Shown piece after piece: positions 7,800 through 46,819 of a stretch of 62,767 bases of DNA. The stretch covers positions 1 to 62,767 of the forward strand of contig JAFRLZ010000009.1 of assembly GCA_017430985.1 (NCBI GenBank), read 5' to 3'. The translations under genes were made by a program, and so were the position numbers. Numbering within the stretch: the first letter of the stretch is position 1; each line of letters starts with the position of its first letter. The DNA comes from Oscillospiraceae bacterium. GTDB taxonomy: Bacteria > Bacillota > Clostridia > Oscillospirales > Oscillospiraceae. Under the pieces are notes generated by a model. That model searched no databases. It had not been told where the DNA came from and saw only the letters and a list, made by a program, of their open reading frames with translations.

Positions 7800-9644
7800 A
7801 TGAAAAACAAAAGCATCATATTGATCATGATTCTGGCGCTGATGCTGACGCTCACGGCCTGCGGGAAGTCTGAATTCGGACTGAGCGAAAACGACGGGAA
7901 GCATATGACGATCACGGCCCGGAATGCCGACAGGGACGCATTCTTTATGGTCGGGTCTCTTGACGTTGCGGACGGAGAGCAGATCGAGATCGCGGCAAAC
8001 CTGACGAAAGGCTCGGTCAGAGTGGAGATCGTCGCGGGCGCGGGCGGCCAGGACATCAACGTGCTTCCCGAGATGGACGGCGCGGCGATCCTTACGGCAG
8101 ATCTTGTTCGCACCGACGGCGCGTCGGGAACCGTGCCCGCCGGGCTGTATTATCTCAGAGCCACCTGCCTTGAGAGAGCGACCGGCACGATTCAGATCAA
8201 CGTAACTCCGGCTGAAACAAACGCGCCCGAGCAGAGCGCTTCTTCCGTACTGCCGGAGGAGGAACAGCGGCGTATTCTGGAGGAAAACCGCGGCCTCTGG
8301 GCCTTTGACGAGGGCGAATACGCGCCGGACTGGTACTATGCCTTTACCGATCTGGATCACAACGGGCTGCTGGAGCTGCTCTCCGCCTCCACCCAGGGCA
8401 GCGGCATCTTCACGTATGCCCACTTTTATGAAGTCCTGCCCGACGGCTCCGGAGTTCGGAACCTGTACCGCGCCGACGGGGAGATCGAGGGCCCGGACGA
8501 CTGGCCGGAGATCATTCTGGACACGCTGCCCTGTTACTACGACAGCGCCGCGGACCGGTATTATTACGTCTGCAGCAATGACGTCCGCGACGGCGCCTGG
8601 CATGGTATGACACAGCTGGCCGCCCTCTCGCTGAAGGACGGCACGGCGACGATCGAGACCCTCGCCGCGATGGACGTACAGCTGACGGAGGACGGCGAGC
8701 AGCGGACCTATACGGACGGCGAAGGCAAGCCCATCTCCGAGGAGGACTACAACAGCGCCGTCGAGCGCCGCTTCGCCGGAATGGCGCGTTCCGAACTGAG
8801 ACCGGATTGGAATGCCGCAGCGAGGCCGCAGGCCGAGCCCGCCAGACAGGACGGCGAACGCTTTGAAGGGGTCATCATCCTCGAGGGCATGGAAGAGACG
8901 GTCCAGTATGAGCACGTCCGTAACGACGCGCTCGGCTTCGAGCTGGACTATGATTATGAGAATTTCGTGCGCCGCAGCGAAGCGGATCGCGAGATCTTCG
9001 TCTCGTGCTGGGACGATCCCGAAAAGCCCGAGAACTATCTCGAGCTGAGATACAACCCCCAGGACGCCGGGACCGTCGCCGCGAACATCTGTGCGTTCCT
9101 CTCCGGCGAATATGAGGTCCGCAGGGACGACGCTTTTGAACTGGAACAGCTCGGAAGCTGCATCCGTATTGACGCGGACGAAGTCAAGGGCGGCGGGTAT
9201 ATGCCCGATCAGCTGCAGACGGTGTATGTGATCCCGGCCGGAGACGGCTGCCGCATCGCCTGGGAGCGCACGTACATCGTCGAGTCCGAGGGCTTCGGCA
9301 GACGGTTCGGCTACATGATGCAGACGCTCTCGCTCCTGCCCGCGCAGGGCGAAAAGAAGCTTACGGACGAGCAGGCCGCTGCCGCCGTCCGGAACTGCTG
9401 CATCATTCAGAATCCGGCGCTGGCGGAGATCGTGGAGAACGGGGAATACCCGAGCTGCTGGGAAGTGCAGTCCTCCGACGGCAATGAGATCGTGGTGTTG
9501 TTCCGCTCCTATACCGGCGCGCAGATCCGGTATTATATCGACCCCGTTTCGGGAGAGACGACCGTCACAGAGCTTGTCCCGGGCGTCACGGACGAAGAAC
9601 AGCGCACGGGTGAGAGCCTGAACGCGTGGGATTATCTGTTCTGA
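7800..9644 (+). CDS. Large lipoprotein of unknown function
   Basis: A 614-residue secreted protein with a lipoprotein signal peptide (lipobox LTAC, acylated Cys at about residue 21). After it come a small beta-rich domain (about 35-140), an acidic segment starting EEEQRRILEENRGLWAFDEG (about 155-310) that resembles proteins reporting on element size or calcium-like repeats (FTDLDHNGLLELL), and a C-terminal region rich in Glu and Asp. FTDLDHNG is an EF-hand-like loop. The last part (EQAAAAVRNCCIIQN) may be a separate domain. No family can be named with confidence. Confidence 0.7.
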   Translation: MKNKSIILIMILALMLTLTACGKSEFGLSENDGKHMTITARNADRDAFFMVGSLDVADGEQIEIAANLTKGSVRVEIVAGAGGQDINVLPEMDGAAILTADLVRTDGASGTVPAGLYYLRATCLERATGTIQINVTPAETNAPEQSASSVLPEEEQRRILEENRGLWAFDEGEYAPDWYYAFTDLDHNGLLELLSASTQGSGIFTYAHFYEVLPDGSGVRNLYRADGEIEGPDDWPEIILDTLPCYYDSAADRYYYVCSNDVRDGAWHGMTQLAALSLKDGTATIETLAAMDVQLTEDGEQRTYTDGEGKPISEEDYNSAVERRFAGMARSELRPDWNAAARPQAEPARQDGERFEGVIILEGMEETVQYEHVRNDALGFELDYDYENFVRRSEADREIFVSCWDDPEKPENYLELRYNPQDAGTVAANICAFLSGEYEVRRDDAFELEQLGSCIRIDADEVKGGGYMPDQLQTVYVIPAGDGCRIAWERTYIVESEGFGRRFGYMMQTLSLLPAQGEKKLTDEQAAAAVRNCCIIQNPALAEIVENGEYPSCWEVQSSDGNEIVVLFRSYTGAQIRYYIDPVSGETTVTELVPGVTDEEQRTGESLNAWDYLF

Positions 9645-9685
9645 TCCGCGCGGGCTTTGCACAAAGCCGCGACGAAACCGCAAGA

Positions 9686-9727
9686 AATACTCCCGCCCGC
9701 CGGTATGATCCGGCGGGCGGGAGTATT
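9686..9727 (+). terminator. Terminator downstream of the 7800 lipoprotein gene
   Basis: A perfect 18-bp GC-rich stem (arms 9686-9703 and 9710-9727) with loop TATGAT; the right arm ends in TATTT. Confidence 0.75.
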
Positions 9728-9744
9728 TGCATGTTCTTAAGGCA

Positions 9745-9773
9745 TTCCAAACGAAAGCGACCTGTGGTATAAT
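9745..9773 (+). promoter_or_regulatory. Promoter for the ferredoxin-like gene
   Basis: TTCCAA (9745-9750), a 17-bp spacer and TATAAT (9768-9773). Confidence 0.6.
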
Positions 9774-9811
9774 GACTGTTATAAAAAAGAGAGACTGAGG
9801 GAGGACAAGCC

Positions 9812-10537
9812 ATGATCCGCAAGATCATCCGTATCGACGAAGAGAAGTGCAGCGGCTGCGGCCTGTGCGCGAGCGCGTGCCACGAGGGCGCGATCGACAT
9901 CGTGGACGGCAAGGCGAAGCTGGTGCGGGAGAACTTCTGCGACGGCTTCGGCGACTGCCTGCCGAACTGCCCCGCCGGCGCGATCAGCTTTGAAGAGCGG
10001 GAAGCCCCGGCCTATGACGAGGCGGCCGTGAAGGCGGCCCAGAAAAAGAAAGCCGCGGAGAAGCTGCTGCGCGAACTGCAGGCCAAGGGCGGCTGCCCCG
10101 GCTCACGGATAGCGGAGCTGCACAGGGAAGACGCGCCGGAACGGGAGGCCGCGCCGGTCAGCGCTCGCCCCGTCTCCCGCCTGAATCAGTGGCCCTGCCA
10201 GATCAAGCTCCTGCCGACGCAGGCGCCCTTCTTCGACGGCGCGAAGCTGCTGATCGCGGCGGACTGCACGGCCTACGCCTACGCCAACCTGCACGAGGAC
10301 TTCATGAAGGGCAGGATCACCGTGATCGGCTGCCCGAAGCTGGACGCGGTGGATTATTCCGAGAAACTGACGGCGATCATCCGCGACAACGACGTTAGGG
10401 GCGTGACCATCCTGCGGATGGACGTGCCCTGCTGCGGCGGCCTGCAGAGAGCGGCGGAAACTGCTCTGCGCAGCAGCGGCAAATTCATCCCCTGGCAGGT
10501 CGTCACGATCTCCCGCGACGGCAGGATTTTGGATTAA
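9812..10537 (+). CDS. 4Fe-4S ferredoxin-type iron-sulfur protein
   Basis: A 241-residue cytoplasmic protein. Residues 1-60 carry two 4Fe-4S motifs (CSGCGLCASAC, then CDGFGDCLPNC). A Lys/Ala-rich linker and a CPGS motif come next. The C-terminal half (ADCTAYAYANLHEDF, GCPKLD, DVPCCGGL) has several conserved cysteines, a layout typical of electron-transfer subunits found across anaerobic Clostridia. An electron-carrier role is inferred; the partner is unknown. Confidence 0.85.
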   Translation: MIRKIIRIDEEKCSGCGLCASACHEGAIDIVDGKAKLVRENFCDGFGDCLPNCPAGAISFEEREAPAYDEAAVKAAQKKKAAEKLLRELQAKGGCPGSRIAELHREDAPEREAAPVSARPVSRLNQWPCQIKLLPTQAPFFDGAKLLIAADCTAYAYANLHEDFMKGRITVIGCPKLDAVDYSEKLTAIIRDNDVRGVTILRMDVPCCGGLQRAAETALRSSGKFIPWQVVTISRDGRILD

Positions 10538-10547
10538 CGGACGGCAT

Positions 10548-11237
10548 ATGAGAAAGAAAAAGCTGTGGATGATCCCGGCGGGCCTCGTCATACTCCTCGC
10601 CCTGGGATTTTTCCTCTATGTTTCGGATTACTACCGTGCGGGCGACAAGGCGCTCAAAGCGCTGGAGCCGGACAGCGTGTCGGTGGAGCAGGCAGAGTAC
10701 GGCTGGTTTTTCGACGGGCCGGCAGAGGACAGATGTCTCATTTTCTATCCCGGCGCAAAAGTGGAGGAGACGGCCTATGCTCCGCTGCTGCACGAGCTCG
10801 CGGCAAACGGCGTCGACGTCTGCCTGGTCAGAATGCCGTTTCATCTGGCGTTTTTCGGCATGAACACCGCCGACGGCATCATGGCGCAGTATGAATATGA
10901 TTGCTGGTACATCGGCGGGCATTCCCTCGGCGGCGCGATTGCCGCAAACTATGCCGCTGCTCATGATCTGGACGGCGTGATCCTGCTCGCCGCCTATCCG
11001 ACCAGGGACGTGGATGAACCGATGCTGATCATCTGCGGGTCCGAGGACGGCGTTGTGAATCAGGAGCGCCTTGCAGAGGCCGACCGATTCGGCACGGTCG
11101 AGGAAGTGATCATTCCGGGCGGAAACCATGCGGGCTTCGGCGACTATGGCCCGCAGGCGGGAGACAGGGCCGCCGCCATAAGCGCCCAGGAGCAGCAGCA
11201 GGCCGCGGCAGACGCCGTCCTCGCATGGATCTCATAA
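10548..11237 (+). CDS. Membrane-anchored alpha/beta hydrolase
   Basis: A 229-residue alpha/beta hydrolase (Abhydrolase_5-like). An N-terminal hydrophobic anchor covers about residues 7-24. The nucleophile elbow is GGHSLGGA, the Asp is likely in GSEDGVVN and the His in GGNHAGFGDYG. These family members are small-molecule esterases or lipases with unclear substrates. It starts 10 bp after the ferredoxin-like gene and probably shares its transcript. Confidence 0.85.
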   Translation: MRKKKLWMIPAGLVILLALGFFLYVSDYYRAGDKALKALEPDSVSVEQAEYGWFFDGPAEDRCLIFYPGAKVEETAYAPLLHELAANGVDVCLVRMPFHLAFFGMNTADGIMAQYEYDCWYIGGHSLGGAIAANYAAAHDLDGVILLAAYPTRDVDEPMLIICGSEDGVVNQERLAEADRFGTVEEVIIPGGNHAGFGDYGPQAGDRAAAISAQEQQQAAADAVLAWIS

Positions 11238-11306
11238 GAAACGACAAGGAAAACACAGGCAGAAAACGATGACCTCGTGATGCTTTTTCGATCGGAGCGA
11301 GGAAGA

Positions 11307-11717
11307 ATGAAGTACAAACACACAAACAGGCCCGGCTTCCTGCTGGGCTTCATCGACTTCTTTACCGCCGGGCTCTTCTTCCTGCTGTATATGCCCCTCG
11401 GAGGGCTGCAGGACGAGCTGGAAGAGATCCTGGGGCACAAAGTGCAGCCCTACTGGAAGGCCTATCTCCTGGGCGTCCCGACCCTGTTCATCTACACGCT
11501 TGTCTGGATGGCGAGGATCGCCGAGGAGCTGAAGGCAAAGGCGATCGAGCTCGGAATTGAGGGGCCCTATACGTCATGGCGGCATATGTTCTGGTGGAAC
11601 CTGCTCGGCTGCCCGTGCTGCGGGCCGATGATCGCGACGAAGCGCTTTTTCGATACGCTCAACAGCGTCGAGACCGAACTGAACAGGCGGGGCGCTTACG
11701 CTCCCGAAAAGGAGTAA
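11307..11717 (+). CDS. Small membrane protein, DUF4234-like, copy 2
   Basis: A 136-residue paralogue of the protein at 7303. The first 60 residues differ at a single position (GGLQ for SGLQ); divergence rises towards the C-terminus, which ends in APEKE. The copies share even the 18-20 bp preceding the start (TTTTTCGATCGGAGCGAGGA), so this is a DNA-level duplication of about 0.4 kb, or the two are kept alike by gene conversion. The ATG at 11307 is taken by comparison with copy 1. Confidence 0.75.
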   Translation: MKYKHTNRPGFLLGFIDFFTAGLFFLLYMPLGGLQDELEEILGHKVQPYWKAYLLGVPTLFIYTLVWMARIAEELKAKAIELGIEGPYTSWRHMFWWNLLGCPCCGPMIATKRFFDTLNSVETELNRRGAYAPEKE

Positions 11718-11756
11718 ACGGATATCCGGCGGCGATCCTTGTGAGGTGAGTGAGAG

Positions 11757-13271
11757 ATGCGGCTTCACGCATTCGGCAATAAGAATACAATGATCCCGAG
11801 CGAAGAGACGCGCGGCAAAGCATACCCGGCCCTGCTCGTCGGATTTGCCGCCTACGTGTTTTCGGGCGGCAGGTGGAACATCGGGCTCGCCGCGTGGATC
11901 TGGCCGCTCGCGTTTTTGACCTACAGCAGAAAAACGGAGGGCCGGAGATCGTTCCTGCTGCTGGCCGCCGCGCTGGCGGTCGGACACGTGATCAAATGGC
12001 TGAACAATCTGGACGCGGGTTATTTCCTGGACGCCGCGGTCTGCCTGATCTGGAGCCTGGCCTGGATCATCCCCTTCCTGGCCGACCGGCTGATCGCGCA
12101 AAAGCTGCCCGGCGTTTTCCTCCGGAGCCTGGTCTTCCCCGCGCTGTTCACCTCCGTTGAAGTGCTGCTGGCCTTTTCGGCCACCAGCAGCTTCGGAACG
12201 ATGGCCTATACGCAGGAGGGCTTTCTGCCGCTGCTGCAGATCGCGTCGCTCATCGGCAGCTTCGGGCTGTCCTTCCTGATCTTCTGGTTCGGGACCGTCG
12301 CGGCGACGGCCCTTGAAAAGCGCCCCGGCTGGAAAGGGCTTGCCGCCGTCTATCTGGCCGTTCTGGCCGCCGTGCTCGTCTTCGGATGCGCCCGGCTGGC
12401 CGCACATCCCGCGGAGAGAGACAGGACCGTCCGGGTGGCGGGCGTCGTCGGCCCGTATTATGAGAAATATGCCGACGGCAGTTATGCCGAGCTGCCATAT
12501 GACGAGACGCAGCGCTGTCTCGTTTCGGAGGCGCGGCGCGCGGCGGAGGGCGGCGCGGCGATCGCCTGCTGGAACGAGGAAGCCTTCACCGTGGACGATA
12601 CGGAGGAAGCCGGTCTTCTCCAAACCACGGAAGCGCTGGCAAAAGAGCATGACATGATCCTGATCCTCGGCGTCGAAGTGAACGACACCGATGACAGCGA
12701 GGGAGGGCTCACGGTCAACAAGTCCGTGATCGTCCTTCCGGACGGCGCTCGCCGTGAGTACGTCAAAACAAAGCTGGTTCCTCTGGTAGAAGCTGCCTAC
12801 GTCAAGGGGACGGGAGAGATCCCCACCGTGGCGACGGACAGGGGGATCCTCTCCAACGTGATCTGCTTTGACGAGACGTATATCGGCTTCGTTCACGGGA
12901 TGGGCGCCAGGACCGACGAGCACTTCAAGGACACCGACATCCTGTTCGTCCCCTCCTGGGATTGGGATTCCGTCAAAAACGCGCATACCAGGATGGCGGC
13001 ATTCCGCGCGATCGAAAACGGCGAGGCCGTCGTCAAGCCCACTTACGGCGGGATAAGCGCCGCGGTTGACCCCTTCGGCCGCGAGCTCCTGCGCTCGGAT
13101 ACGGCGGACGCCGGATTTGATTCGGTATGGTTCGCGGAGGTCCCCGTCGCCGGGGTCCGAACGCTTTATTCAGCGATCGGAACGGGCGTCGATCTGGCGT
13201 TCTGCGCGCTCGGGCCCGTGATGCTGTTTCTCTGCCATCTGGTCATACGCCGGAAGAAAACACACGCCTGA
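11757..13271 (+). CDS. Apolipoprotein N-acyltransferase-like protein (membrane plus nitrilase domain)
   Basis: A 504-residue integral membrane protein with the Lnt layout: about six to seven hydrophobic segments over residues 22-212, then an extracellular carbon-nitrogen hydrolase domain. Triad candidates are Glu274 (CWNEEAF), Lys339 (YVKTKLVP) and Cys370 (NVICFDETY), with a final C-terminal transmembrane segment (FCALGPVMLFLCHLVI). In Gram-negative bacteria and actinobacteria Lnt attaches a third acyl chain to lipoproteins. Overall similarity is divergent and the second half of the signature (WNEEAF for WPE) is unusual, so a different amide substrate is possible. Confidence 0.78.
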   Translation: MRLHAFGNKNTMIPSEETRGKAYPALLVGFAAYVFSGGRWNIGLAAWIWPLAFLTYSRKTEGRRSFLLLAAALAVGHVIKWLNNLDAGYFLDAAVCLIWSLAWIIPFLADRLIAQKLPGVFLRSLVFPALFTSVEVLLAFSATSSFGTMAYTQEGFLPLLQIASLIGSFGLSFLIFWFGTVAATALEKRPGWKGLAAVYLAVLAAVLVFGCARLAAHPAERDRTVRVAGVVGPYYEKYADGSYAELPYDETQRCLVSEARRAAEGGAAIACWNEEAFTVDDTEEAGLLQTTEALAKEHDMILILGVEVNDTDDSEGGLTVNKSVIVLPDGARREYVKTKLVPLVEAAYVKGTGEIPTVATDRGILSNVICFDETYIGFVHGMGARTDEHFKDTDILFVPSWDWDSVKNAHTRMAAFRAIENGEAVVKPTYGGISAAVDPFGRELLRSDTADAGFDSVWFAEVPVAGVRTLYSAIGTGVDLAFCALGPVMLFLCHLVIRRKKTHA

Positions 13272-36630: not shown

Positions 36631-37191
36631 TCAGTGCGCCGCGCGGAACAGCGTCGGCACATATAACAGCAGCAGACCCGCGGCGGCGGACACGATAACG
36701 GTTTTGGGCGCGGTGAAGCGGAAGCGGAGCAGCAGCACGAGCGCCGCGACGCCGATCGCGATCAGCGCGGGGGACAGCTGCCCGTTCACGAGATAATCCG
36801 AGCGCAGCAGATTGATCAGAAAGCCCGCGATGATGCCGAGACAGGCGGGGCGCACCGCCTGCAGGAGATGCTGCACCGCGGCGGCCTCCTTGAAGCGGTG
36901 AAAGGCCAGGGCGACCACGCTGCAGATGATGACCGTCGGGGTCAGCACGCCGAGACTCGCGCACAGCGCGCCGAGCATGCCTCCGGCGCGGACGCCCGCG
37001 AAGGTCGCGCAGTTAAGGCCGAGCGGCCCCGGCGTCATCTCCGCGATGGCGACGATGTCGCTCAGCTCCTCCAGCGCCATCCAGGCATGGGCGGTCATTT
37101 CGCTCTCAATGAGCGGGATCATGCTCAGCCCGCCGAAGCTGGTGAAGCCGATCTTGCAGAAGGCCCAGTAGAGCTGCAGATATACGAGCAT
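36631..37191 (-). CDS. Chromate transporter family half-protein (ChrA), second half
   Basis: A 186-residue, about six-segment membrane protein with CHR-domain motifs (CKIGFTSFGG, AIAEMTPGPLGLN, FAGVRAGG). Short CHR proteins work as pairs; the partner starts 4 bp upstream. In most anaerobes the substrate is unlikely to be chromate; an organic or inorganic anion is possible. Confidence 0.85.
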   Translation of the reverse strand: MLVYLQLYWAFCKIGFTSFGGLSMIPLIESEMTAHAWMALEELSDIVAIAEMTPGPLGLNCATFAGVRAGGMLGALCASLGVLTPTVIICSVVALAFHRFKEAAAVQHLLQAVRPACLGIIAGFLINLLRSDYLVNGQLSPALIAIGVAALVLLLRFRFTAPKTVIVSAAAGLLLLYVPTLFRAAH

Positions 37192-37194
37192 GGC

Positions 37195-37740
37195 TCAGCC
37201 CTCCTTCTTCCGATAGAGCAGCAGACCGGCTGCGGCCGCTATGGCGATGATCAGGATGCAGTCGAGCCCGAAGACATAGGCGGCCAGAGCGAGCGCGAAA
37301 AACACGTACCCGCTGCGAAGCATGAAGGCCGCCTTGCGCAGCCGCAGCGTGCCGGACAGGATGATGGGCGCCACGGCCGCGCGCACGCCGAGCAGCATGC
37401 TCTCCACGAGCGGCTGCGCGCGCAGCCGCTCATAAAACCAGGTGAGGACCGTCAGGAAAATCACCGGCGGGAGCGAGATGCCGATCACGCAGGCGAGCGC
37501 GCAGGCGAAGCCGCCGACCTGGTAACCGAAGAGGTAACAGGTGTTTCCCGTCAGCAGTCCGGGCAGAGAGCGCCCGATGCTGATGACGTCGAGCATCTCT
37601 TCCTCGCTCAGCAGCTTCTCTTCCTCGACGAATTTTTTCTGGATCTGAGCGATCAGGGACCAGCCGCCGCCGAAGGTATAAAAGCCGAATTGAAAAAAAC
37701 TCCAGAACAGGTGGAGAGGCAAAGATTTTTTAGCGCTCAT
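37195..37740 (-). CDS. Chromate transporter family half-protein (ChrA), first half
   Basis: A 181-residue membrane protein with CHR-domain motifs (FFQFGFYTFGGGWSLIAQI, ISIGRSLPGLLTGNTCYLFG). It forms a two-gene pair with the following half and opens the second minus-strand unit. A terminator separates it from the AtuA unit upstream. Substrate unknown. Confidence 0.85.
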   Translation of the reverse strand: MSAKKSLPLHLFWSFFQFGFYTFGGGWSLIAQIQKKFVEEEKLLSEEEMLDVISIGRSLPGLLTGNTCYLFGYQVGGFACALACVIGISLPPVIFLTVLTWFYERLRAQPLVESMLLGVRAAVAPIILSGTLRLRKAAFMLRSGYVFFALALAAYVFGLDCILIIAIAAAAGLLLYRKKEG

Positions 37741-37769: not shown

Positions 37770-37822
37770 AAAAAAAGACCTCCAGGCAAGCGTAAGCGTT
37801 CTTGACAGCCTGCCTGGGGGTC
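37770..37822 (-). terminator. Terminator after the AtuA/TRAP unit
   Basis: On the minus strand a stem pairs GACCCCCAGGCA (37811-37822) with TGCCTGGAGGTC (37777-37788), followed by seven T (37770-37776). It begins 5 bases after the DUF4387 stop. Confidence 0.85.
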
Positions 37823-37826
37823 GTGC

Positions 37827-38138
37827 TCAGACTTCGATATACATCAGCGGGACGTGCTGCTGGGCCGCATGCATATCCACCTCTCCGATGGAGCCCTGCT
37901 GCCGCGGGCGGGGGAAGGTGATCTTGATCGCGTTGGCCGCGTCGAAGACCGCGAGCGTCGTGATCTTCTCAATCGGGACGTTGTAAAGAGCGGATATTTT
38001 TTCCTTGGTGATGATGCCCTTGTTCCAGACTTCGAGGAAGTCCTCATGGTTTTTGAAAATGATGTCCATGGTGATCTCGAAGGGGCCGGAATTCTTGGTG
38101 CGGATCATCTTGGCGATATCCTTCAGGTATCGGCTCAT
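37827..38138 (-). CDS. DUF4387 protein, AtuA-associated, copy 1
   Basis: A 103-residue protein: SRYLKDIAKMIRTKNSGPFE, DIIFKNHEDF, then a C-terminal AFDAANAIKITFPRPRQQGS. DUF4387 proteins occur next to or fused to AtuA (DUF1446) and are thought to form a small ferredoxin-fold partner. The ATG at 38138 has GGAGG 7 nt upstream and lies 2 nt after the AtuA stop; an upstream GTG would overlap that stop. It is the last gene of the unit. Confidence 0.88.
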   Translation of the reverse strand: MSRYLKDIAKMIRTKNSGPFEITMDIIFKNHEDFLEVWNKGIITKEKISALYNVPIEKITTLAVFDAANAIKITFPRPRQQGSIGEVDMHAAQQHVPLMYIEV

Positions 38139-38140
38139 GC

Positions 38141-39496
38141 TCACACCTCCTCGTACACGGTCCTGAACAGGGCGACCGGGTCGTCGATGGCCAGCAGATG
38201 GTAGACGTTGAACTTGCAGACCTGGCCGAGCGGGATCTCCAGCGGCGTGAAGGGAGAGGCAATGTTGCCGGCGGTGGCGATCCGCCCCTCGTAGGGGTTG
38301 TGCAGGAGCTGGACGCGGGTCTTGTTGCAGATCTTGGTCGCGGTCTCCTGGTCCTGCGCCACGGCCTCAACGATGACGCACAGCTCATGCGCCGGGGTCT
38401 TGACCGGCTCGAGTTCGCCCATGACGCCGTTCTTCCCGTAGACGTGATAAATGATCTGTGTGCTGTCCTTCAGCTCGGGGTAGGCCGTGTAGACGTCGTT
38501 TCTGGCCCGCTCCAGGAAGGGATCGATCTGCGAGATCAGGATCGGATCCCGGATGCCGGTCACGGCGATGGAGCGGTAGCCGCAGGGGCGCGCGCCCTCC
38601 ATCTTCACGGTGTAAGTCTCTGCCTTGAGGAACTTGCTGCCGGAGATCTTGACGCGCCGCTCGTCGATTTGCTCGAAACGGCAGCCGGAGAGGTCCAGCG
38701 TCCCGCCGGGACCCGGCAGGAGATAGGGATGGCTCTTTTCGTACAGCGTGTGGGCGGCGGCCGAATAGGTGTGGCAGATCTCGGCGGGGTTCATGGCCTC
38801 GAGGATGAAGCCGTCCTCCTGAAGCGTGCCGAGGATCACGCGGCCGGCGGGCTCGGCGCACTGCGCGCCGCACTCCGCGATCTTGCCCATGTGCCAGCAG
38901 TAGGCGGGGTCAAAGCCGTTCTTGATGCCCAGCGCGGCGATGGGGACGGGGTCGTAGGCGCGGCCGCCGATGATGATGTCGATGTCCGGGTGCTCCTCCA
39001 GGAGCTTTAAATAGGGCTCCACGCCCATCTGCGCGACGATGACGGTGGCCAGATCGATCTCTTCCTCCGTCAGTTCGGGGACCGGCCCGCAGGGGCTGAC
39101 GCGGCCTTCCCGGAGGCCCTGCTTGACGGTCTCCTTGTTCAGACCGGCGTAGATGCGCGCGGCTTTCAGATGGAAGCCGTGCCTGGCGGCGATGTCCTTG
39201 ACCATGCCATAGATGACGTCCACATGCTGGTCGGAGCCGTCTCCGCCGGCGGAGCTGATAAAGACGGGGATCTTGTTTTTCTGCCCGCCGCAGATCATCA
39301 TCTCCAGGTCGCGGTAATAGGCGTCGTATGTACAGGTCATCGCGCCCAGACCCAGTTTCTGCGGGCCGGAGTCCGTCGAGCCGGAGTCGGCGGTGATCAC
39401 GTCGGGCTGCAGACTCAGTCCGCGCTCGAACCACTGGGGCGGAAAGCCATAGCCCAGCATGCCGGTCGGCGTCAGGACTTTTAACTCTTTTTTCAT
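38141..39496 (-). CDS. AtuA family protein (DUF1446), copy 1
   Basis: A 451-residue cytoplasmic protein of the acyclic terpene utilization AtuA family. Conserved features are GMLGYGFPPQWFERG, ADSGSTDSGPQKLG, SSAGGDGSDQHVDVI, GGRAYDPVPIAALG, CWHMGKIAECGAQ and TGIRDPILISQ. AtuA is linked to terpenoid degradation in Pseudomonas, but the enzymatic reaction of the family is not settled. It is about 35-40 percent similar by eye to copy 2 at 43499 and is paired with its own DUF4387 gene. Confidence 0.88.
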   Translation of the reverse strand: MKKELKVLTPTGMLGYGFPPQWFERGLSLQPDVITADSGSTDSGPQKLGLGAMTCTYDAYYRDLEMMICGGQKNKIPVFISSAGGDGSDQHVDVIYGMVKDIAARHGFHLKAARIYAGLNKETVKQGLREGRVSPCGPVPELTEEEIDLATVIVAQMGVEPYLKLLEEHPDIDIIIGGRAYDPVPIAALGIKNGFDPAYCWHMGKIAECGAQCAEPAGRVILGTLQEDGFILEAMNPAEICHTYSAAAHTLYEKSHPYLLPGPGGTLDLSGCRFEQIDERRVKISGSKFLKAETYTVKMEGARPCGYRSIAVTGIRDPILISQIDPFLERARNDVYTAYPELKDSTQIIYHVYGKNGVMGELEPVKTPAHELCVIVEAVAQDQETATKICNKTRVQLLHNPYEGRIATAGNIASPFTPLEIPLGQVCKFNVYHLLAIDDPVALFRTVYEEV

Positions 39497-39574
39497 TCTC
39501 TTATCCTTCTTTTTGTGATTTGCGGCACACCGGGGGAAAGACCGACGATGTGCCGCAGTACAGAAACACAGGCG

Positions 39575-41446
39575 CTATGCGGCCGCTTTTCTCCCGCGCA
39601 GGACGTTGAGCACGACAATACCGCCGGCGATCACGAGGCCTGCCAGACTGACGTAGAGGTTTGTGACAACGAGCATGACGCCCGAAACGACGAGAAGGAC
39701 GCGGAAGGGGAGCGGGATGTTCTTCTTCACGTAGCCCGCCGCGCCGATGCCGATCGAGATGACGCCCAGCGTCGCCGTGAGCACGCAGACGGCGATATTG
39801 CCGAACGAGCCCATCAGGAGCAGCGACTGGTCGTATACGAAGGTGAAGGGCACGATGAAGGACGAGAGCGCGAGCAGCACGGACAGGAAGCCTGTCTTGA
39901 CCCACTTGGATTCCGCGATGCCGGAACTCAGATACACGGCGGCGCAGACCGGAGGCGTGATGGTCGAGATCGTCGAGAAGAAGAACACGAAGAGATGCGC
40001 GATCATGATGTCGAGCCCCAGCCTCACCAGAGCCGGCGCCAGAACGGAGGCGGCGAGCACATACGCGGCCGTGGTCGGCAGACCCATGCCGAGGATCAGA
40101 CAGACCAGCATGGACAACAGCAGGCACAGGAACAGATTGCCCTGACCGAGGCTGACGATCACGTCGGACATTTTGACGCCGAAGCCGGTCAGCGAAATGA
40201 GAGAGATGGCGACCTGCGCGCCGGCCAGCAGGCCCGCAACCGTGATGATGTTCGAGGCGGAGTCGAGCGAGATGGAGTAGGCCGAGCGGACGATCTCCTT
40301 CGCCGGTCGCTGATAGCGTTTGGTGAAGAGGTTGATCAGGGCGCAGATGATGAAGCCGGCGACGGAGGCGTACAGCGCGCCGTAGGTGACCGAGAAGCCG
40401 CAGACCAGCAGGATGACGAAGATCGTGATCGGGATCAGGATGATCATCAGCTCCGGCAGGTCGATCTTGACCTTCTCATCCTCGCCCTTGATGCCGTCGC
40501 GCTTGGCGACAAAATGCACGGCGACGAAAGATCCCAGATAATAGAGGATCGCCGGGACGATCGCCGCGACGGCGATCTTGAGGTATTCCACGCCGATCAG
40601 CTGCGACATGACGAAGGCGCCCGCGCCCATGATCGGCGGCATGATCTGCCCGCCGGTCGAGCCGACGGCGGAGATGGCGGCTGCCCACTCGTTGTTGAAC
40701 TTGTCCTTCTTCATCATCGGGATGGTGAAGGTCCCCGTCGCCATGACGTTGGCCATGGCGCTGCCGGAGAGCATCCCGAAGAGGCCGCTGGCGATCAGCG
40801 TCACCTTGCCGGAGCCGCCGGCGGTCTTTCCGGTCAGCTTCTGGCCCAGCTTGATGAAGGTCTCGGAACCGCCGGTGGCCGTCAGGACACAGCTGAAAAT
40901 GCTGAACATGGCCAGCATCGTGGAGGAGATGCCGAGCATGGTCCCCCACACGCCGTTGGTCGAGTGGTAGAGCGTCTGGAAGATGGTGTCGATCTTGATC
41001 TTCTGGTGGCCCCAGATCCCGGGGAAGTACGGGCCGAAGTAGGCATAGATCATAAAGATGAACGCCATGATCGGGAAGGTCCATCCCACGCAGCGGCGGC
41101 TTGCTTCGATGACAAGGAAGATAAGAACGATGCCGAAGATCTTATCGGCGAGGCTGACCCACTGCAGGGGATCCCAGGTGATAACGTCGTAGATGCTCAC
41201 GACATACACGCAGGCCGCGGTGCCGAGCACGGCAAAAACGATGTCATAAAAGGGGATCTTGTCTTTCGGGGCCTTCTTGGTGGCCGGCTTCAGCAGAAAG
41301 CAGAGAGCCAGGATAAAGGAGAGATGGACGCCGCGCTGAATGATGGCGGAGAAGATGCCGAAAGCCGCCGTATAGATCTGGAAGATGACCAGCGCGATCG
41401 ACAGGATTGCAACAACGATCTTCCAGGGACCGGATAGTTTTCTCAT
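39575..41446 (-). CDS. TRAP transporter fused 4TM/12TM permease, TAXI type
   Basis: A 623-residue permease combining the small DctQ-like and large DctM-like subunits. The large domain shows GMLSGSAMANVMATGTFTIP, AVGSTGGQIMPPIMGAGAFV and GMGLPTTAAYVLAASVLAP. It drives Na+-coupled uptake with a TAXI receptor, whose gene lies 24 bp upstream in the operon. The substrate is likely the organic acid used by the AtuA/lyase genes. Confidence 0.92.
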   Translation of the reverse strand: MRKLSGPWKIVVAILSIALVIFQIYTAAFGIFSAIIQRGVHLSFILALCFLLKPATKKAPKDKIPFYDIVFAVLGTAACVYVVSIYDVITWDPLQWVSLADKIFGIVLIFLVIEASRRCVGWTFPIMAFIFMIYAYFGPYFPGIWGHQKIKIDTIFQTLYHSTNGVWGTMLGISSTMLAMFSIFSCVLTATGGSETFIKLGQKLTGKTAGGSGKVTLIASGLFGMLSGSAMANVMATGTFTIPMMKKDKFNNEWAAAISAVGSTGGQIMPPIMGAGAFVMSQLIGVEYLKIAVAAIVPAILYYLGSFVAVHFVAKRDGIKGEDEKVKIDLPELMIILIPITIFVILLVCGFSVTYGALYASVAGFIICALINLFTKRYQRPAKEIVRSAYSISLDSASNIITVAGLLAGAQVAISLISLTGFGVKMSDVIVSLGQGNLFLCLLLSMLVCLILGMGLPTTAAYVLAASVLAPALVRLGLDIMIAHLFVFFFSTISTITPPVCAAVYLSSGIAESKWVKTGFLSVLLALSSFIVPFTFVYDQSLLLMGSFGNIAVCVLTATLGVISIGIGAAGYVKKNIPLPFRVLLVVSGVMLVVTNLYVSLAGLVIAGGIVVLNVLRGRKAAA

Positions 41447-41470
41447 AAGCGTTCCCTGTGCTTTCCTCGT

Positions 41471-42532
41471 TTAGGCTACCGGCACGTATTCGTCGGGGAT
41501 CAGATTGGCGGGGACTTCCACGCCGAGTTCGGTCAGATACTGGACGGTGCCGGCGTGCAGCTTGGAGCAGGCCGAGGAGAGGAGCAGGTCGACCAGGTCA
41601 TACTTGCCGGTCGCGGGATAGGCCGCCACGACGCTGTCGTAGCCGCTGCCCTCAAACACGGCCTTGATGAACTTGTAGCCGTCCTCCTGCGGGAGCTCCG
41701 TCGTGGTCTGCACGCTGCCGACGACCTGGAAGGTCTTGACGTCGTAGTCGGCAAAGTCATAGGTGTTGGCGGGGATCACGGTGGGCGTGAGGTAGGGGTA
41801 CTGCTCGGCGATCTTCGCCAGGTCCTCGTCGGTGAAGCTCAGCAGGCGCACGTCGCGTGCGGTGTTGAGCTGCAGCACGAAGCTGTCGGGAGCGCTGCCC
41901 TGCTTGGTGGTGCCGACGATCTGACGGTCGCCGTAAGCGTCGGCGGCATCGCCCTGCGTGGCCTCAAAGTAGGCCGGCTGGAGCCCCAGCACGGCGAAGG
42001 CGTTGGTCACGGCCTGAGCGGTCGCGCCGCCGGTGGCGCCGGGATTGAACTTCTGACCTTCAAGCTCATAGATGTCCTGGATGCCGGTGTCGACCGCAAC
42101 GGCGATCTGGATCGGGGTCACGTCGTAGTACCAGAGCACGCGGGCGTCCTGGTTCTGCTTGTCGGCGTAGGAGCCGGTGCCGAAGTACAGCTCGTAGTCG
42201 GCCGCGGTCGTGGAGTTGCCGATGATGGCGTCGCCGTTGGAGATCTTGTTGATGATGTCGGCGATGCCCTGGGATTCGGAGACCGTCAGGTTATACTCGG
42301 GATAGGTGTCCTGAATGGCCTTGCCGATGGCAACGAAATAGGTATACAGCGCGGAGGTGGAGGGAGGCGCGGCGATGGTCATGAATTTCTTTTCCACTCT
42401 CGGAGCGGCGGTGGCGGCCGGGGCGTCGGAGCCGCCGGACGGCGCGGGAGCCGTCTGCTGCCCGCAGGCGCACAGGGCCAGCATCATGACGGCGGCCAGG
42501 AGAAGGGCGACGATCTTGGTCAGGTTTTTCAT
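41471..42532 (-). CDS. TAXI-family TRAP solute receptor, lipoprotein
   Basis: A 353-residue substrate-binding lipoprotein. The signal peptide ends in lipobox LCAC (Cys about residue 23), followed by an Ala/Pro/Ser-rich linker to about residue 48. The binding domain starts at FMTIAAPPSTSALYTYFVAIG and contains NPGATGGATAQAVTNAF. TAXI receptors bind dicarboxylates or amino acids such as glutamate. AAGGAGG lies 6 nt before the ATG. Confidence 0.92.
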   Translation of the reverse strand: MKNLTKIVALLLAAVMMLALCACGQQTAPAPSGGSDAPAATAAPRVEKKFMTIAAPPSTSALYTYFVAIGKAIQDTYPEYNLTVSESQGIADIINKISNGDAIIGNSTTAADYELYFGTGSYADKQNQDARVLWYYDVTPIQIAVAVDTGIQDIYELEGQKFNPGATGGATAQAVTNAFAVLGLQPAYFEATQGDAADAYGDRQIVGTTKQGSAPDSFVLQLNTARDVRLLSFTDEDLAKIAEQYPYLTPTVIPANTYDFADYDVKTFQVVGSVQTTTELPQEDGYKFIKAVFEGSGYDSVVAAYPATGKYDLVDLLLSSACSKLHAGTVQYLTELGVEVPANLIPDEYVPVA

Positions 42533-42594
42533 AATATCCTCCTTTTTGTTTGAACGGTTTTTCCGGTTCTTTCGTCTGTTCGGGTCAAAGGGTC

Positions 42595-43161
42595 TTATTT
42601 GTGCTTGTCCAGGAGCAGTTCTCTGCCGGCGAGGAAACGGTGGAAGTCGGCGTCCGCGACGTCGGCGTAATAGAGGGCCAGACCCTCGATGCTGCGGGGG
42701 ATCTTTCGCGATTCGCCGGTATGAGAGATCAGGATGGAGACGACCTCTTCGGGGAAGCCCTCGCGCTCGGCGTAAAAGGCGCTCAGGAAGCCGTGCTGAT
42801 AGGTCTCGCCGAGCGAGCCCTTGTGCGCGCCGTCCGGCGTGGGCTCGTATTCCACGATCTTGCACACGTCGTGCAGCAGGCAGGAGGCCACCAGCACGTC
42901 GCGGTCGCACGTCTCGCCGAAGAGCTTTTCCAGGACATCGACCAGACCCAGCGCGCCGAGCACGCAGGCGCGGGTGTGCGTCACAAGGCTGATGCCCGGA
43001 GCCAGAGGATTGTACCAGGCCTCGGTCATATCGTCCCATTTGCTGCGCTGATAGGCCTCGTTCCAGATCTCCAGAACTTTTTTGGCCCAGGCTCTGTTCT
43101 TGAGGAGCGCCTCCTCGGGGAACAGGGCGGCCACTTCTTCGATGCTGTATTGTTTTTTCAT
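42595..43161 (-). CDS. HD-domain phosphohydrolase-like protein
   Basis: A 188-residue protein with the H...HD...D signature: His in SLVTHTRACV, HD in SCLLHDVCKI, and a later D near YYADVADADF. HD proteins are usually metal-dependent phosphohydrolases of nucleotides. Its position between the receptor gene and DUF4387 copy 2 suggests a part in the same pathway; no other link is visible. ATG at 43161 has AAAGGAG upstream. Confidence 0.85.
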   Translation of the reverse strand: MKKQYSIEEVAALFPEEALLKNRAWAKKVLEIWNEAYQRSKWDDMTEAWYNPLAPGISLVTHTRACVLGALGLVDVLEKLFGETCDRDVLVASCLLHDVCKIVEYEPTPDGAHKGSLGETYQHGFLSAFYAEREGFPEEVVSILISHTGESRKIPRSIEGLALYYADVADADFHRFLAGRELLLDKHK

Positions 43162-43177
43162 AGCGTCTCCTTTCTGT

Positions 43178-43486
43178 TCAGACAGGGATCTCCAGTTCGA
43201 CCAGCGGCGCGTGATGCTGGCAGCCGTACACGTCGCCGTCTTCAAAATCGCCGCAAAAGGCTTTGCGCGGGAAGGAAAATTTTATGGCGTTGGCGCCGGT
43301 GCATTCAAAATACTGCACCTTTTCCAGCGGGATGTCGTAGAGCTCGGAGATCAACTTCGGCGTCAGGACGCCGGTGGCCAGCGTTTTTTCATAGCTTTCC
43401 CGATCTCCGAAGAGGATATCGATCGTCAGGGCAAAGGGGCCCGCATTTTTGCAGCGGACCATCTGCGCCAGTTCGTACAGTTTCAT
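43178..43486 (-). CDS. DUF4387 protein, AtuA-associated, copy 2
   Basis: A 102-residue paralogue of the protein at 37827 (YELAQMVRCKNAGPFALTID, ECTGANAIKFSFPR). It lies 12 bp after AtuA copy 2, repeating the AtuA-DUF4387 order of copy 1. The repeated module implies a dedicated partner for each AtuA protein. Confidence 0.88.
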   Translation of the reverse strand: MKLYELAQMVRCKNAGPFALTIDILFGDRESYEKTLATGVLTPKLISELYDIPLEKVQYFECTGANAIKFSFPRKAFCGDFEDGDVYGCQHHAPLVELEIPV

Positions 43487-43498
43487 TTGGACACCCCC

Positions 43499-44842
43499 TT
43501 ACAGTTCTTCATAGCGAATGGGGAACAGCTCCAGCGGATCGTCCACTTCGATCACATGGTTCAGGCAGAAATTGTAGACGACGCCGTTCTCCACGACGAT
43601 GGGCGAATACGGATAGGCGATCTGGCTCTGATGGCCGTGCCACTCCTTGATCGGGTGATGCAGGAAGGTGTGGCTGGCGATCGCGATGATCGACTGAGCG
43701 TTCTCGGGGCTGTCGGCGATGGTCTCCATGACAATGCCGATCTCGCCGGGCTCTTCCGCCCTGGGGTTGCCGTAGACCCGGTACTGGAACCTGTAATCGT
43801 CTTTGGTGAGGCCCGTACTGGCCTCGATCTTCTTCATGATCGTCGCGCGGGAGCTGTCGAGGAAGCTGTCCAGCTGGCGGAGGATCAGCGGGTCGCGGAT
43901 CCCGCCCAGCGCGAAGGCGCGGTAGCCGGCCTTGAGCGCGCCCTCGAGCTTGACCGTGTACCTGGGGCTGAACTCCAGGCGGCTGTTCGAGATGTTCACG
44001 CGGCGGTCGTTCTCCGCCTCGTATTTGGCGTCTTTGATCTGCAGCACCCGGCCCGGCTCCACGAGGACGAAGGGGTCGGTGTTCTCATACAGAGAATGCG
44101 CCAGACAGCTGACCGGCGTGCAGCGCATCAACGGGTTGGGAGGCTCGATGCTCACGGAGTCCTCGCGGACCCAGGCCATCATGCAGTCGGGATAGATCCG
44201 CTGCTCCACCGCGCCCGCGCCGCATTCCAGGATCTTGGCGGCATGCCAGGCCGAGCCCGTATCCATGCCCTTCATGATGGGATAGGCGGCATAGATCGAG
44301 GTGTCGCTGGCGCGGCCCGCGATCACGACGTCGGCGCCGGCGCGCATGGCCTCGATGAAGGGCTCCGGGCCCATGACGCCGACGATCCGCTCGGTTTTTT
44401 CCAGAGTCGTCTCGTCGAAATCCGGAGCGGGGTCCAGCGGCGACATCCTGCCGGCGCGCATATAGGAGCGCAGCTGCTCCTTGCTGATCTCGGACTGGAT
44501 CACCGCGAGCTTGAAATGATAGCCCTCTTCGGCCGCGATCTCGCGGACGATGTCCACCATCCAGTCCACATGGGGCTTGCCGCCCGCGGTGCCGGCTGAG
44601 CCGACGAGCACCGGGATGTGCGCCTTCAGGCCTTCGCGGATCATGAGGCGGAGGTCCCGCTTGGCAGCCGCGCGGGAAGAGATGGGCACGCCGGCGCCGA
44701 GATAGTACGGGCCGTTGTCGCAGGAACCGGAATCGCAGCCGATCACGTCGGCCTTGAACTCTGTGACGCCCCGGACAAGACTTTCTTCCTTGAAGCCGGT
44801 GGCGAGCATCCCTGTTGCGGCGAGTACGCGAACTTCGTTCAT
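43499..44842 (-). CDS. AtuA family protein (DUF1446), copy 2
   Basis: A 447-residue paralogue of the protein at 38141, sharing CDSGSCDNGPYYLG, GSAGTAGGKPHVDWM, GRASDTSIYAA, WHAAKILECGAG and GIRDPLILRQLDSFL. The duplicates are divergent, so they probably act on different intermediates of the same route or form a heteromeric enzyme. It is the second gene after the divergent promoter region. Confidence 0.88.
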   Translation of the reverse strand: MNEVRVLAATGMLATGFKEESLVRGVTEFKADVIGCDSGSCDNGPYYLGAGVPISSRAAAKRDLRLMIREGLKAHIPVLVGSAGTAGGKPHVDWMVDIVREIAAEEGYHFKLAVIQSEISKEQLRSYMRAGRMSPLDPAPDFDETTLEKTERIVGVMGPEPFIEAMRAGADVVIAGRASDTSIYAAYPIMKGMDTGSAWHAAKILECGAGAVEQRIYPDCMMAWVREDSVSIEPPNPLMRCTPVSCLAHSLYENTDPFVLVEPGRVLQIKDAKYEAENDRRVNISNSRLEFSPRYTVKLEGALKAGYRAFALGGIRDPLILRQLDSFLDSSRATIMKKIEASTGLTKDDYRFQYRVYGNPRAEEPGEIGIVMETIADSPENAQSIIAIASHTFLHHPIKEWHGHQSQIAYPYSPIVVENGVVYNFCLNHVIEVDDPLELFPIRYEEL

Positions 44843-44854
44843 ATCCTGTTCTCC

Positions 44855-45709
44855 TTATTTAACAACGCTGTCGAGCTCGGAGAGCTCGTCGATGTGGATC
44901 AGCGACATGATCTCCTTGGACAGCGCCGAGGTCTCCTCCGGTGTGAAGCCGCTGCGGCCGGTGCGGAACATGTTTTCGTAGGTGCGCTTGATGCTGGAGA
45001 AGGCGGAGATCACCGGGGTGAGCGGGTAGATGATCATCTTGTAGCCGTAGGAGGCCGCTTCCTCCGGGGAGGGGATCGGACGTCCGAGACCCTCGGAGGC
45101 GACGTAGCAGAGCGGATAATCCACCTTCTTCGGGGTCAGGATCATCTCCTCCTCGTTCCGTGGGAAGGTCATCACCAAATCGCAGCCCGTTTTGGCGTAG
45201 AGATTGGCGCGCTCGATGGCGTTGTTCCAGTCCTCATCCGCGTTGCGGCCGGCGTCCGTCCGGGCGATGATGATCGTGTCCGGCGTCTTTCTGCACTTGA
45301 GGCACAGATCGATCTTCTGGAGCATCTCGTCGGCGGAGATGATGTAGTGCTTGCCCTTGTGATAGCTGATTGGCTTGGGATAGACCTGGTCTTCGAGCTG
45401 GATGCCCTGGCAGCCGGCCTCTTCAAAGCATTTCAGCATCCGCTTCACCATCGGCAGGTCGCCGAAGCCGGCGCCCGCGTCGACCGTCAGCGGGATGTCG
45501 GACACATGGCTGATGTTCCGGGAGATGTCCGCGAACTCCGTCAGGGTCGTCAGGGGCTCCGTCGTCCCCAGATGCGCGCCGACCGCCCAGCCGCCCAGGT
45601 AGGCTGCTTTGAACCCAATATTTTCTATAGCCAGCGCGGACAGAGGGTCAAAACAGCCGGGCGCCACAACGATCTTCTCTGTTTCTAATAATTTTTTTAA
45701 CTTTTCCAC
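44855..45709 (-). CDS. Isocitrate lyase/PEP mutase-fold protein with altered active site
   Basis: A 284-residue TIM-barrel protein of the ICL/PEPM superfamily (PGCFDPLSALAIENIGF, TVDAGAGFGD, GIQLEDQVYP, IIIARTDA). Typical C-C lyases such as 2-methylisocitrate lyase have the gating-loop motif K-K/R-C-G-H; here the loop reads KPISYHKGK and lacks the catalytic Cys. The second Mg-binding Asp is Gly79 (VDAGAG), while Asp77 and Glu106 remain. It may cleave or hydrolyse another 2-oxo or 2-hydroxy acid. The start is GTG at 45709, with AGGGGG about 8 nt upstream. It opens the AtuA/TRAP unit. Confidence 0.85.
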   Translation of the reverse strand: MEKLKKLLETEKIVVAPGCFDPLSALAIENIGFKAAYLGGWAVGAHLGTTEPLTTLTEFADISRNISHVSDIPLTVDAGAGFGDLPMVKRMLKCFEEAGCQGIQLEDQVYPKPISYHKGKHYIISADEMLQKIDLCLKCRKTPDTIIIARTDAGRNADEDWNNAIERANLYAKTGCDLVMTFPRNEEEMILTPKKVDYPLCYVASEGLGRPIPSPEEAASYGYKMIIYPLTPVISAFSSIKRTYENMFRTGRSGFTPEETSALSKEIMSLIHIDELSELDSVVK

Positions 45710-45832: not shown

Positions 45833-45860
45833 ACAAGCGGCCTTTTGGATGCAGAGGGCC

Positions 45861-45888
45861 TTGTAATCCGAAAACGCCGTGCTATACT
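45861..45888 (+). promoter_or_regulatory. Promoter of the LysR gene
   Basis: TTGTAA (45861-45866), a 16-bp spacer and TATACT (45883-45888), 47 bp before the GTG start. Confidence 0.65.
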
Positions 45889-45934
45889 GAAGCAGAGATC
45901 GACGCCTTTCAACGGGAAAAAGGGGGCCGGAACC

Positions 45935-46819
45935 GTGGATAATATGGATTGGCAGATCGTAAAAGTACTGAGAGAAGAAAAGAGCGCCATCAAAACGGCG
46001 GCGCGCTGCAACATGTCACAGCCGGCGGTGATGTACCGGCTAAACAAGATGGAGGAAGAGTTCGGCGTGATCCTCTTCTCCCGGAGCAACCACGGCATTT
46101 CGTTCACCAGCGCAGGCGAGCGGCTTCTGCTGTATTCGGACAAGATGCTCCAGCAATACAGCGACATCAAGGACTACGTCCGCTCCGCCGGTTCCGATCT
46201 GGTCGGAACGATCAGCATCGGCGCCACCTCGTCTTTCACAAACCTGTTTTTCCCGCATCTTCTGCAGAAATTCCGGCAGCAGTATTCCAAGATCCAACTG
46301 CAGTTTTTCTGCGGCAAGAGCGACGAGCTTCTGGCCAAGCTCGAGCGGCGGGAGATCAGCATCGGCATCATCCGCGGCGCGCACGAGTGGAACGGCGGGA
46401 AATACACCATCGCGCGCGAGCCGATCATGATCGCCTCCAGCACGCCCATCGATATGGAGGCGCTGCCGCATATCCCCTATATCAACTACCGGGCGGACCC
46501 GCTTTTGCAGAGCCAGATCAACAGCTGGTGGGCCGGCCTCTACGGCGACTGTCAGCCGAATACGATCATCTATGCCTACGACACACAGAGCTGCCTGAGC
46601 TTTGTGGAGTGCGGTCTCGGCTTTTCCATCATGCCGGCGATCCGCCTGGCGCAGAGCCCGAACATCTATAAAAAAGCGCTCACGAAAACGGACGGGAGCC
46701 ACATCCTTCGCGAGACGCACCTGTTTTATCATCAGGACATCACCGAGCTCGACGCCTACAACGCCTTCCTCACCTTCTTCCTGAACGAGATCAAGTACAT
46801 GGACTTCTCGTTCTCCTGA
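45935..46819 (+). CDS. LysR-family transcriptional regulator of the AtuA/TRAP unit
   Basis: A 294-residue LTTR. The winged helix covers about residues 5-65 (VKVLREEKSAIKTAARCNMS, then PAVMYRLNKMEEEFGVILF and TSAGERLLLYSD). The periplasmic-type substrate domain begins near GTISIGATSSFTNLFFP, with a small-ligand pocket. Being divergent from the lyase-AtuA unit, it probably activates that unit when its substrate is present. The GTG at 45935 follows AGGGGG at 8 nt; an ATG at 45944 is an alternative. Confidence 0.88.
   Translation: MDNMDWQIVKVLREEKSAIKTAARCNMSQPAVMYRLNKMEEEFGVILFSRSNHGISFTSAGERLLLYSDKMLQQYSDIKDYVRSAGSDLVGTISIGATSSFTNLFFPHLLQKFRQQYSKIQLQFFCGKSDELLAKLERREISIGIIRGAHEWNGGKYTIAREPIMIASSTPIDMEALPHIPYINYRADPLLQSQINSWWAGLYGDCQPNTIIYAYDTQSCLSFVECGLGFSIMPAIRLAQSPNIYKKALTKTDGSHILRETHLFYHQDITELDAYNAFLTFFLNEIKYMDFSFS

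Follow-up and report, generated by a model that had tools for sequence, protein, structure and literature searches.

An operon with two CmlAB-like AtuA-DUF4387 pairs, a TAXI-TRAP importer, an HD protein and a Cys-less PEPM-fold protein in an Oscillospiraceae bacterium

Introduction

AtuA and DUF4387 are protein families with uninformative names, and their closest described members are the two subunits of a complex deposited in the Protein Data Bank (PDB; entries 9erq and 9evf). Chain A is recorded as 'Acyclic terpene utilization AtuA family protein' and 'Citramalate lyase, subunit A (cmlA)', chain B as 'DUF4387 domain-containing protein' and 'Citramalate lyase, subunit B (cmlB)', and 9evf is titled 'Citramalate lyase - ADP - pyruvate complex'. 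The bound ADP and pyruvate suggest that an adenine nucleotide probably takes part in the cleavage by this complex, CmlAB, for instance by way of an acyl phosphate. In glutamate fermentation, citramalate is cleaved to acetate and pyruvate, according to an excerpt of PMC8473912. Here, we describe an operon (positions 37827-45709, minus strand) with two AtuA-DUF4387 pairs in a window of 62,767 nucleotides, which is one whole contig (JAFRLZ010000009.1) of the draft genome of an Oscillospiraceae bacterium (GCA_017430985.1; 81% complete).

The operon also encodes a TAXI solute receptor, a fused TRAP permease, a stand-alone HD protein and a protein of the PEPM/ICL superfamily, and a LysR gene lies divergently beside it. 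Importer, regulator and enzymes thus lie together in a compact test case. Lyases of the PEPM/ICL type, such as PrpB, 2,3-dimethylmalate lyase and petal death protein, carry a catalytic Cys in a KxCGH loop and a DxD metal motif. For the importer, the characterised relative is the TAXI receptor VcGluP, which binds glutamate (PMC11574862, excerpt).

Both AtuA-DUF4387 pairs are related to citramalate lyase

Each DUF4387 gene directly follows an AtuA gene: copy 1 at 37827-38144 after AtuA copy 1 (AtuA-1) at 38141-39496, and copy 2 at 43178-43486 after AtuA copy 2 (AtuA-2) at 43499-44842. The DUF4387 copies scored 123.5 (copy 1) and 105.8 bits (copy 2) against PF14330 (cut-off 27), and the AtuA profile gave 56.8 and 76.4 bits for the two copies (cut-off 22.8). 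For each AtuA copy, the only PDB sequence found at E ≤ 1 was CmlA of 9erq/9evf (9erq_A at E = 2.4e-94 for AtuA-2), with identities of 43.8% for AtuA-1 and 37.4% for AtuA-2. The DUF4387 copies are 43.9% (copy 1) and 44.0% (copy 2) identical to CmlB of 9erq, and copy 2 matched 9erq_B at E = 5e-22. A structure model of AtuA-1 (predicted local distance difference test, pLDDT, 92.6) matched 9evf_A at E = 1.4e-62 with a template modelling (TM) score of 0.89, the sole PDB match at E ≤ 0.001; the next match had a TM score of 0.12, and the other 49 listed all had query TM scores of 0.19 or less. Among 47 selected rows, 44 positions are near-invariant, with the residue shared by at least 97% of the rows; all 44 are retained in AtuA-1, and 43 each in AtuA-2 (Val for Phe230) and CmlA.

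The two pairs therefore share with CmlAB its two-subunit makeup, encoded by genes that lie side by side in the window and in relatives, full-length homology of both subunits, the family-invariant residues and, for the AtuA-1 model, the fold of 9evf_A. They differ from CmlAB in that both AtuA copies fall outside the CmlA/methylaspartate clade in our trees, in that they are duplicated within one operon, and in that they travel with TAXI-TRAP, HD and Cys-less PEPM genes instead of glutamate mutase and methylaspartase. A preliminary description of this stretch, made from its sequence, had stated that AtuA and DUF4387 have no settled reaction; this has been overtaken by the homologous complex that the PDB holds as citramalate lyase, whose structures provide a testable function and a means to separate clades by likely substrate.

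With moderate confidence, we propose that this is a catabolic operon for the import and cleavage of a malate-type 2-hydroxy acid that bears one further substituent, whether citramalate, citrate or one of their homologues. The acid would be sensed by the LysR regulator, and by homology the TAXI receptor and fused TRAP permease would import it as a 2-hydroxy di- or tricarboxylate. The two CmlAB-family heteromers, again by homology, would cleave it into a short acid and a 2-oxo acid, either pyruvate or oxaloacetate, perhaps with an adenine nucleotide and via a route such as an acyl phosphate. Since the pairs come from different clades, they may serve different acids. Copy 1 may take the more citrate-like acid because its two nearest relatives lie in tricarboxylate-transporter loci, and copy 2, together with the HD protein and the Cys-less PEPM protein to which it is recurrently linked, may process a related acid or a product formed further downstream. 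The route first suggested for this locus, import and cleavage of a perhaps branched hydroxy- or dicarboxylic acid, fits these data and is sharpened by the citramalate-lyase relative; its assignment of the PEPM protein as a lyase is unsupported (see below).

We scanned 84,980 species genomes for AtuA and analysed the best 80 of 579 confirmed loci (592 pattern matches), a ranked sample and not a census. Neighbours were counted by tblastn with chosen marker proteins, so that the counts cover only those markers, and neighbour domain names come from representatives run against Pfam or NCBIfam. DUF4387 adjoins AtuA in 79 of the 80 loci, the remaining one being at a contig end, and AtuA lies beside DUF4387 in all 30 wider stretches read from the class. 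The distribution is patchy: of 391 genomes from the class, 27 carry DUF4387, and of 60 relatives only one does, the source genome itself.

Several observations weigh against the proposed import and cleavage of a citramalate- or citrate-like acid. Because both window AtuA copies branch outside the CmlA clade, specificity may differ from that of CmlA, and because other AtuA clades adjoin dioxygenase, SDR and CoA transferase genes, the family may catalyse more than one reaction. The CmlAB reaction itself is taken from PDB titles and names, since we found no publication on the function of CmlAB, AtuA (DUF1446, PF07287) or DUF4387 (PF14330) among PubMed Central open-licence papers; an excerpt of PMC4682846 mentions a DUF1446 gene of undetermined role downstream of mal in Enterobacteriaceae. 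The substrate is assigned from neighbouring genes, and among the four relatives of AtuA-1 that come after the two nearest these vary: recombinase genes adjoin AtuA at L070, where genes for tripartite tricarboxylate transporters (Tct) lie further away; ABC-transporter genes lie beside AtuA at L078 and L080; and at L072 there are Tct genes, an adjacent fumarase-type gene and glutamate mutase genes ~7 kilobases (kb) off, the last two of which would point to citramalate and not citrate. None of the 36 other genomes examined from the same genus has DUF4387, and only one of the 80 loci has TAXI-TRAP genes at a distance of 5 kb or less from AtuA. The conserved neighbourhood on which the first proposal depended is therefore found only in part: the TAXI-TRAP linkage and presence within the genus fall short, and AtuA-2, DUF4387, HD and PEPM genes recur together in three Actinomycetota loci. 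Weaker TRAP-permease matches that lack a TAXI match occur near AtuA in four of the 30 class loci (L079, L081, L082 and L084).

The two AtuA copies belong to different clades with different neighbours

The AtuA copies are only 36% identical to each other, and they separate in a tree of 114 rows and in a second tree built after dropping six long-branch rows. AtuA-1 forms a group with L194 and L198, to which it is 62% identical (support 100), and a wider one that adds four relatives from the class (support 92). At L194, TctC and TctA genes flank the AtuA locus on both sides, and the locus also carries aconitase (1022 bits, cut-off 612), citF (767, cut-off 501) and NADP isocitrate dehydrogenase (659, cut-off 567) genes and a citE-like gene (389, under the cut-off of 443). 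At L198, a TctA match lies just downstream, and at L192 a relative of DUF4387-1 (59%) at a contig edge lies beside TctC, TctA and aconitase matches and isocitrate dehydrogenase. A citrate-like substrate for AtuA-1 is thus a lead from the neighbours at two or three loci, and citramalate itself is possible. CitF was not found in the source genome (81% complete), so that AtuA-1 might conceivably take the place of citrate lyase.

AtuA-2 groups with two Bacillaceae rows (support 98) within a nine-row clade that also contains Actinomycetota and Acidobacteriota (support 92). Within 5 kb of AtuA and on the same strand, an HD gene occurs in seven of the 80 loci and a PEPM-family gene in six. Both occur in three (L094, L104 and L108, all Actinomycetota), in the order AtuA-DUF4387-HD-PEPM followed by an MFS transporter gene, and a Syntrophus locus (L109) has AtuA-DUF4387-PEPM. 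The locus with the closest AtuA-2 among those surveyed (L088, Fredinandcohnia onubensis, 59% identity) is also the only TAXI-TRAP locus; it encodes TAXI-TRAP, AtuA, DUF4387, a dehydrogenase of the isopropylmalate/homoisocitrate type (356 bits, cut-off 410), HD and a LarA protein whose nearest model is that of the malate racemase LarAH6 (432 bits, cut-off 500), both scores falling short of the cut-off. In a separate observation, one other surveyed stretch (L111:6617-11700) carries two AtuA-DUF4387 pairs, which are divergent, and it is the sole such stretch among the 80.

The alternative that survives best is one importer serving two separate short pathways, in which the AtuA-1 pair handles one acid, AtuA-2, DUF4387-2, HD and PEPM form a self-contained route for another, and the pairs do not act in sequence. 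The low identity between the AtuA copies, the different neighbours of their clades, the location of AtuA-1 and DUF4387-1 beyond the transporter genes, and the presence of the AtuA-2 module apart from an AtuA-1 copy in the L094, L104 and L108 stretches all favour such a split. The tight packing of the eight genes and the single terminator at their end argue against it, and we regard it as plausible, if well short of probable.

AtuA-2 recurs with a stand-alone HD protein and a Cys-less PEPM-fold protein

The HD protein (42595-43161, minus strand) matches PF01966 at 37.9 bits (cut-off 22). Residues H62, H97, D98, H123, H147 and D167/D170/D172 are invariant in all eight aligned rows, which gives the H...HD...H...H...D pattern of metal-dependent HD proteins. 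Foldseek with a model of the protein (pLDDT 91) returned a YhaM-type nuclease as the best match (9h3f, E = 2e-4, TM score 0.62); the fold search gave general HD relatives only and does not fix a substrate. YhaM-type nucleases are multi-domain, whereas the window protein is a stand-alone domain of 188 residues. An HD profile searched against 398 Bacillota genomes gave two matches above 100 bits, in the source genome and in G952, compared with at most 61.8 bits for the other 48, a gap of ~100 bits. The weak matches in other genomes are frames of 317-412 amino acids, which we take to be YhaM. The same profile matched two of 246 genomes in the class of the L108 genome (the seed genome and G1112) and one of 17 in the family of the L088 genome (the seed only).

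Most loci with HD or variant PEPM genes were found through AtuA, which makes their linkage partly circular. Two genomes were found by HD in searches that used no AtuA query: in G1112 the HD gene lies ~6 kb from an AtuA-DUF4387 pair, and in G952 it is unlinked to AtuA-DUF4387, with AtuA elsewhere in the genome. As a side observation, G952 carries aconitase large and small subunit, Cys-bearing PEPM and MutL/MutS-like pair matches together (L236, ~6600-12400), a gene group that resembles the end of nicotinate fermentation.

The PEPM protein (44855-45709, minus strand) belongs to the PEPM/ICL superfamily by its PEP_mutase profile (PF13714, 115.5 bits, gathering cut-off 31.5) and keeps the EDQ and RTDA motifs of PrpB-type lyases. 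It differs from them in that the KxCGH loop reads KPISYH and the DxD region reads DAGAG, with Gly in place of the second Asp, a loss that recurs in similar form across phyla, and it scores 166 bits with TIGR02317, below the cut-off of 354. The alteration for which the preliminary description called it an altered lyase is thus real; a role in C-C or C-O cleavage is unsupported, as the Cys and second Asp typical of known lyases are missing. The window protein and those at L094, L104, L108 and L109 share a K[PR][IA]xYH loop and have DAG or DAC in place of DxD.

We searched for PEPM proteins in 12 genomes, ten chosen for AtuA-2-clade or HD- or PEPM-linked loci and two found by HD. The variant accounts for five of the 20 matches (G979, G980, G981, G982 and G983), and each of the five genes has an AtuA-2-type pair no more than 10 kb away; in G979 the distance is ~9.8 kb and the gene is on the opposite strand. 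In the other 15 the second position is still acidic, and the Cys is present as well in 12 of them. PEPM-family matches occur in 16 of the 150 genomes searched from the source's own family, and the variant motif is in none of the 14 motif-readable matches among 17 non-self loci. Next to AtuA genes of other clades, PEPM genes that retain the Cys are found too (L100 and L129). By sequence, the Cys-less PEPM protein is a conserved, distinct type.

A further alternative holds that the AtuA-DUF4387 pairs are hydratases or isomerases and that the PEPM protein is the sole cleaving enzyme. Outside the CmlA clade, AtuA neighbours are varied and include aconitase-type and MmgE/PrpD hydro-lyases, and some positions at which the CmlA clade does not vary are changed in the AtuA-2 clade (for example, Tyr16 is Thr and Gly262 is Glu), which could alter the chemistry. 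Set against these points, the pairs retain nearly all of the family-invariant CmlA residues, and the Cys and the second Asp that characterise its family's lyases are missing from the PEPM protein; we consider this alternative unlikely.

Within the proposed import-and-cleavage operon, a known enzyme family (CmlAB) stands in a new setting, and the unexplained conserved pair of HD and Cys-less PEPM proteins is the most interesting part, as it points to a possible new enzyme reaction. We tentatively suggest that AtuA-2, DUF4387-2, HD and the Cys-less PEPM protein could constitute an undescribed, horizontally spread pathway. In it, the PEPM protein would catalyse a reaction new to its superfamily, a hydroxy-acid substrate would be prepared or cleaved by a nucleotide-linked CmlAB-type lyase, and the HD protein would act on a phosphorylated intermediate or by-product.

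The operon probably differs from methylaspartate and glutamate systems

In the 114-row tree, the 22 AtuA rows labelled for a nearby gene for methylaspartase or glutamate mutase E (MutE) fall with CmlA in one clade of 27 rows, five of which lack the label, CmlA among them. This grouping fits citramalate cleavage, as the context of the clade is the glutamate pathway in which mesaconate is converted to citramalate and then to pyruvate and acetate. It is very improbable that the operon serves glutamate fermentation by the methylaspartate route, in which AtuA-DUF4387 would be an ordinary citramalate lyase: this pathway is the CmlA-clade context, and glutamate mutase genes lie near AtuA at L072, in AtuA-1's wider clade, but neither window AtuA is in the CmlA clade, Mal, MutE, MutS and MutL markers gave no match in window positions 30001-52000 (the only region in which Mal was sought), and MutE was not found in the 81%-complete source genome, so we set this reading aside.

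Separately, a P-loop NTPase-like protein of ~295-321 amino acids accompanies CmlAB/glutamate-mutase operons, within 5 kb and on the same strand, in 14 of the 80 loci (L166:6607-7494; the cluster also includes L133, L136, L139-L141, L144, L145, L148, L149, L151, L156, L158, L159 and L164). Its motif, read by eye, is YFAPRG...GDAGAGKS, and one representative had no Pfam match at 1e-6. In eight of eight other loci (L096-L098, L101, L103, L106, L114 and L115), AtuA is linked to TauD-type dioxygenase and GST genes, in seven of them with aldehyde dehydrogenase, which suggests another substrate class for the AtuA family.

The receptor (41471-42532) and the fused permease (39575-41446), both on the minus strand, score above curated cut-offs as TAXI-TRAP proteins, the type to which VcGluP belongs (TIGR02122, 141.8 bits, cut-off 84.35; TIGR02123, 568.4 bits, cut-off 320.65), and the receptor starts with a lipoprotein-like signal, read by eye. 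It differs from VcGluP in its glutamate determinants. Aligned with PDB 8s4j, which matching numbering suggests is VcGluP, the receptor shows Leu at the place of Y45, Ile at that of S75 and Thr at that of Q93, with a Tyr one place after the Leu; Y45 and Q93 are the two key determinants named in the excerpt of PMC11574862. Because these three positions are replaced, glutamate is unlikely as the ligand. We accordingly give almost no weight to a glutamate/glutamine transporter in an operon that handles an amino acid, for which the glutamate bound by VcGluP speaks and against which the replaced residues stand, the neighbouring Tyr aside.

CcpC is a citrate-responsive regulator, and its model is the nearest to the LysR protein (NF058504, 176.4 bits, cut-off 400; next model 98.4). 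The LysR gene lies on the plus strand at 45935-46819, in an open reading frame at 45845-46819 whose likely start is GTG 45935 or ATG 45944.

Operon layout and flanking genes

The set and order of the eight minus-strand genes are confirmed by Pfam and NCBIfam matches above curated cut-offs, so that the preliminary description stands on this point, as it does on a terminator at the operon end and on a divergent LysR gene. From the PEPM gene to DUF4387 copy 1, the gaps between successive neighbours are 12, 12, 16, 62, 24, 78 and -4 bases, and Shine-Dalgarno-like sequences, read by eye, precede most of the genes. The PEPM frame is open to 45775, its first ATG; GTG at 45709, preceded by GGGGG, is the likelier start and coincides with the end first given to the unit.

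Directly 3' of DUF4387 copy 1, a long GC-rich hairpin followed by T7 (37770-37822, minus strand) has the form of an intrinsic terminator. The fold of the 86-nucleotide stretch has a z score of -2.17, and seven of 200 shuffles fold equally well. The hairpin was not among the candidates of a simple terminator pattern scan; a candidate of that scan at 37716 was rejected as it sits within the next coding gene. A promoter pattern scan gave two matches, no more than shuffled sequence (3.0). The argument for co-transcription of the operon, which we infer, therefore comes from gene spacing. GC content at third codon positions is 0.73-0.89 in the eight genes and 0.76-0.93 in nine other window genes, and because these ranges overlap, composition does not mark the operon as foreign. 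Directly 3' of the terminator lie two chromate-transporter half genes (36631-37191 and 37195-37740), and these are followed by an Asp-Al_Ex permease gene and a Mem_trans permease gene.

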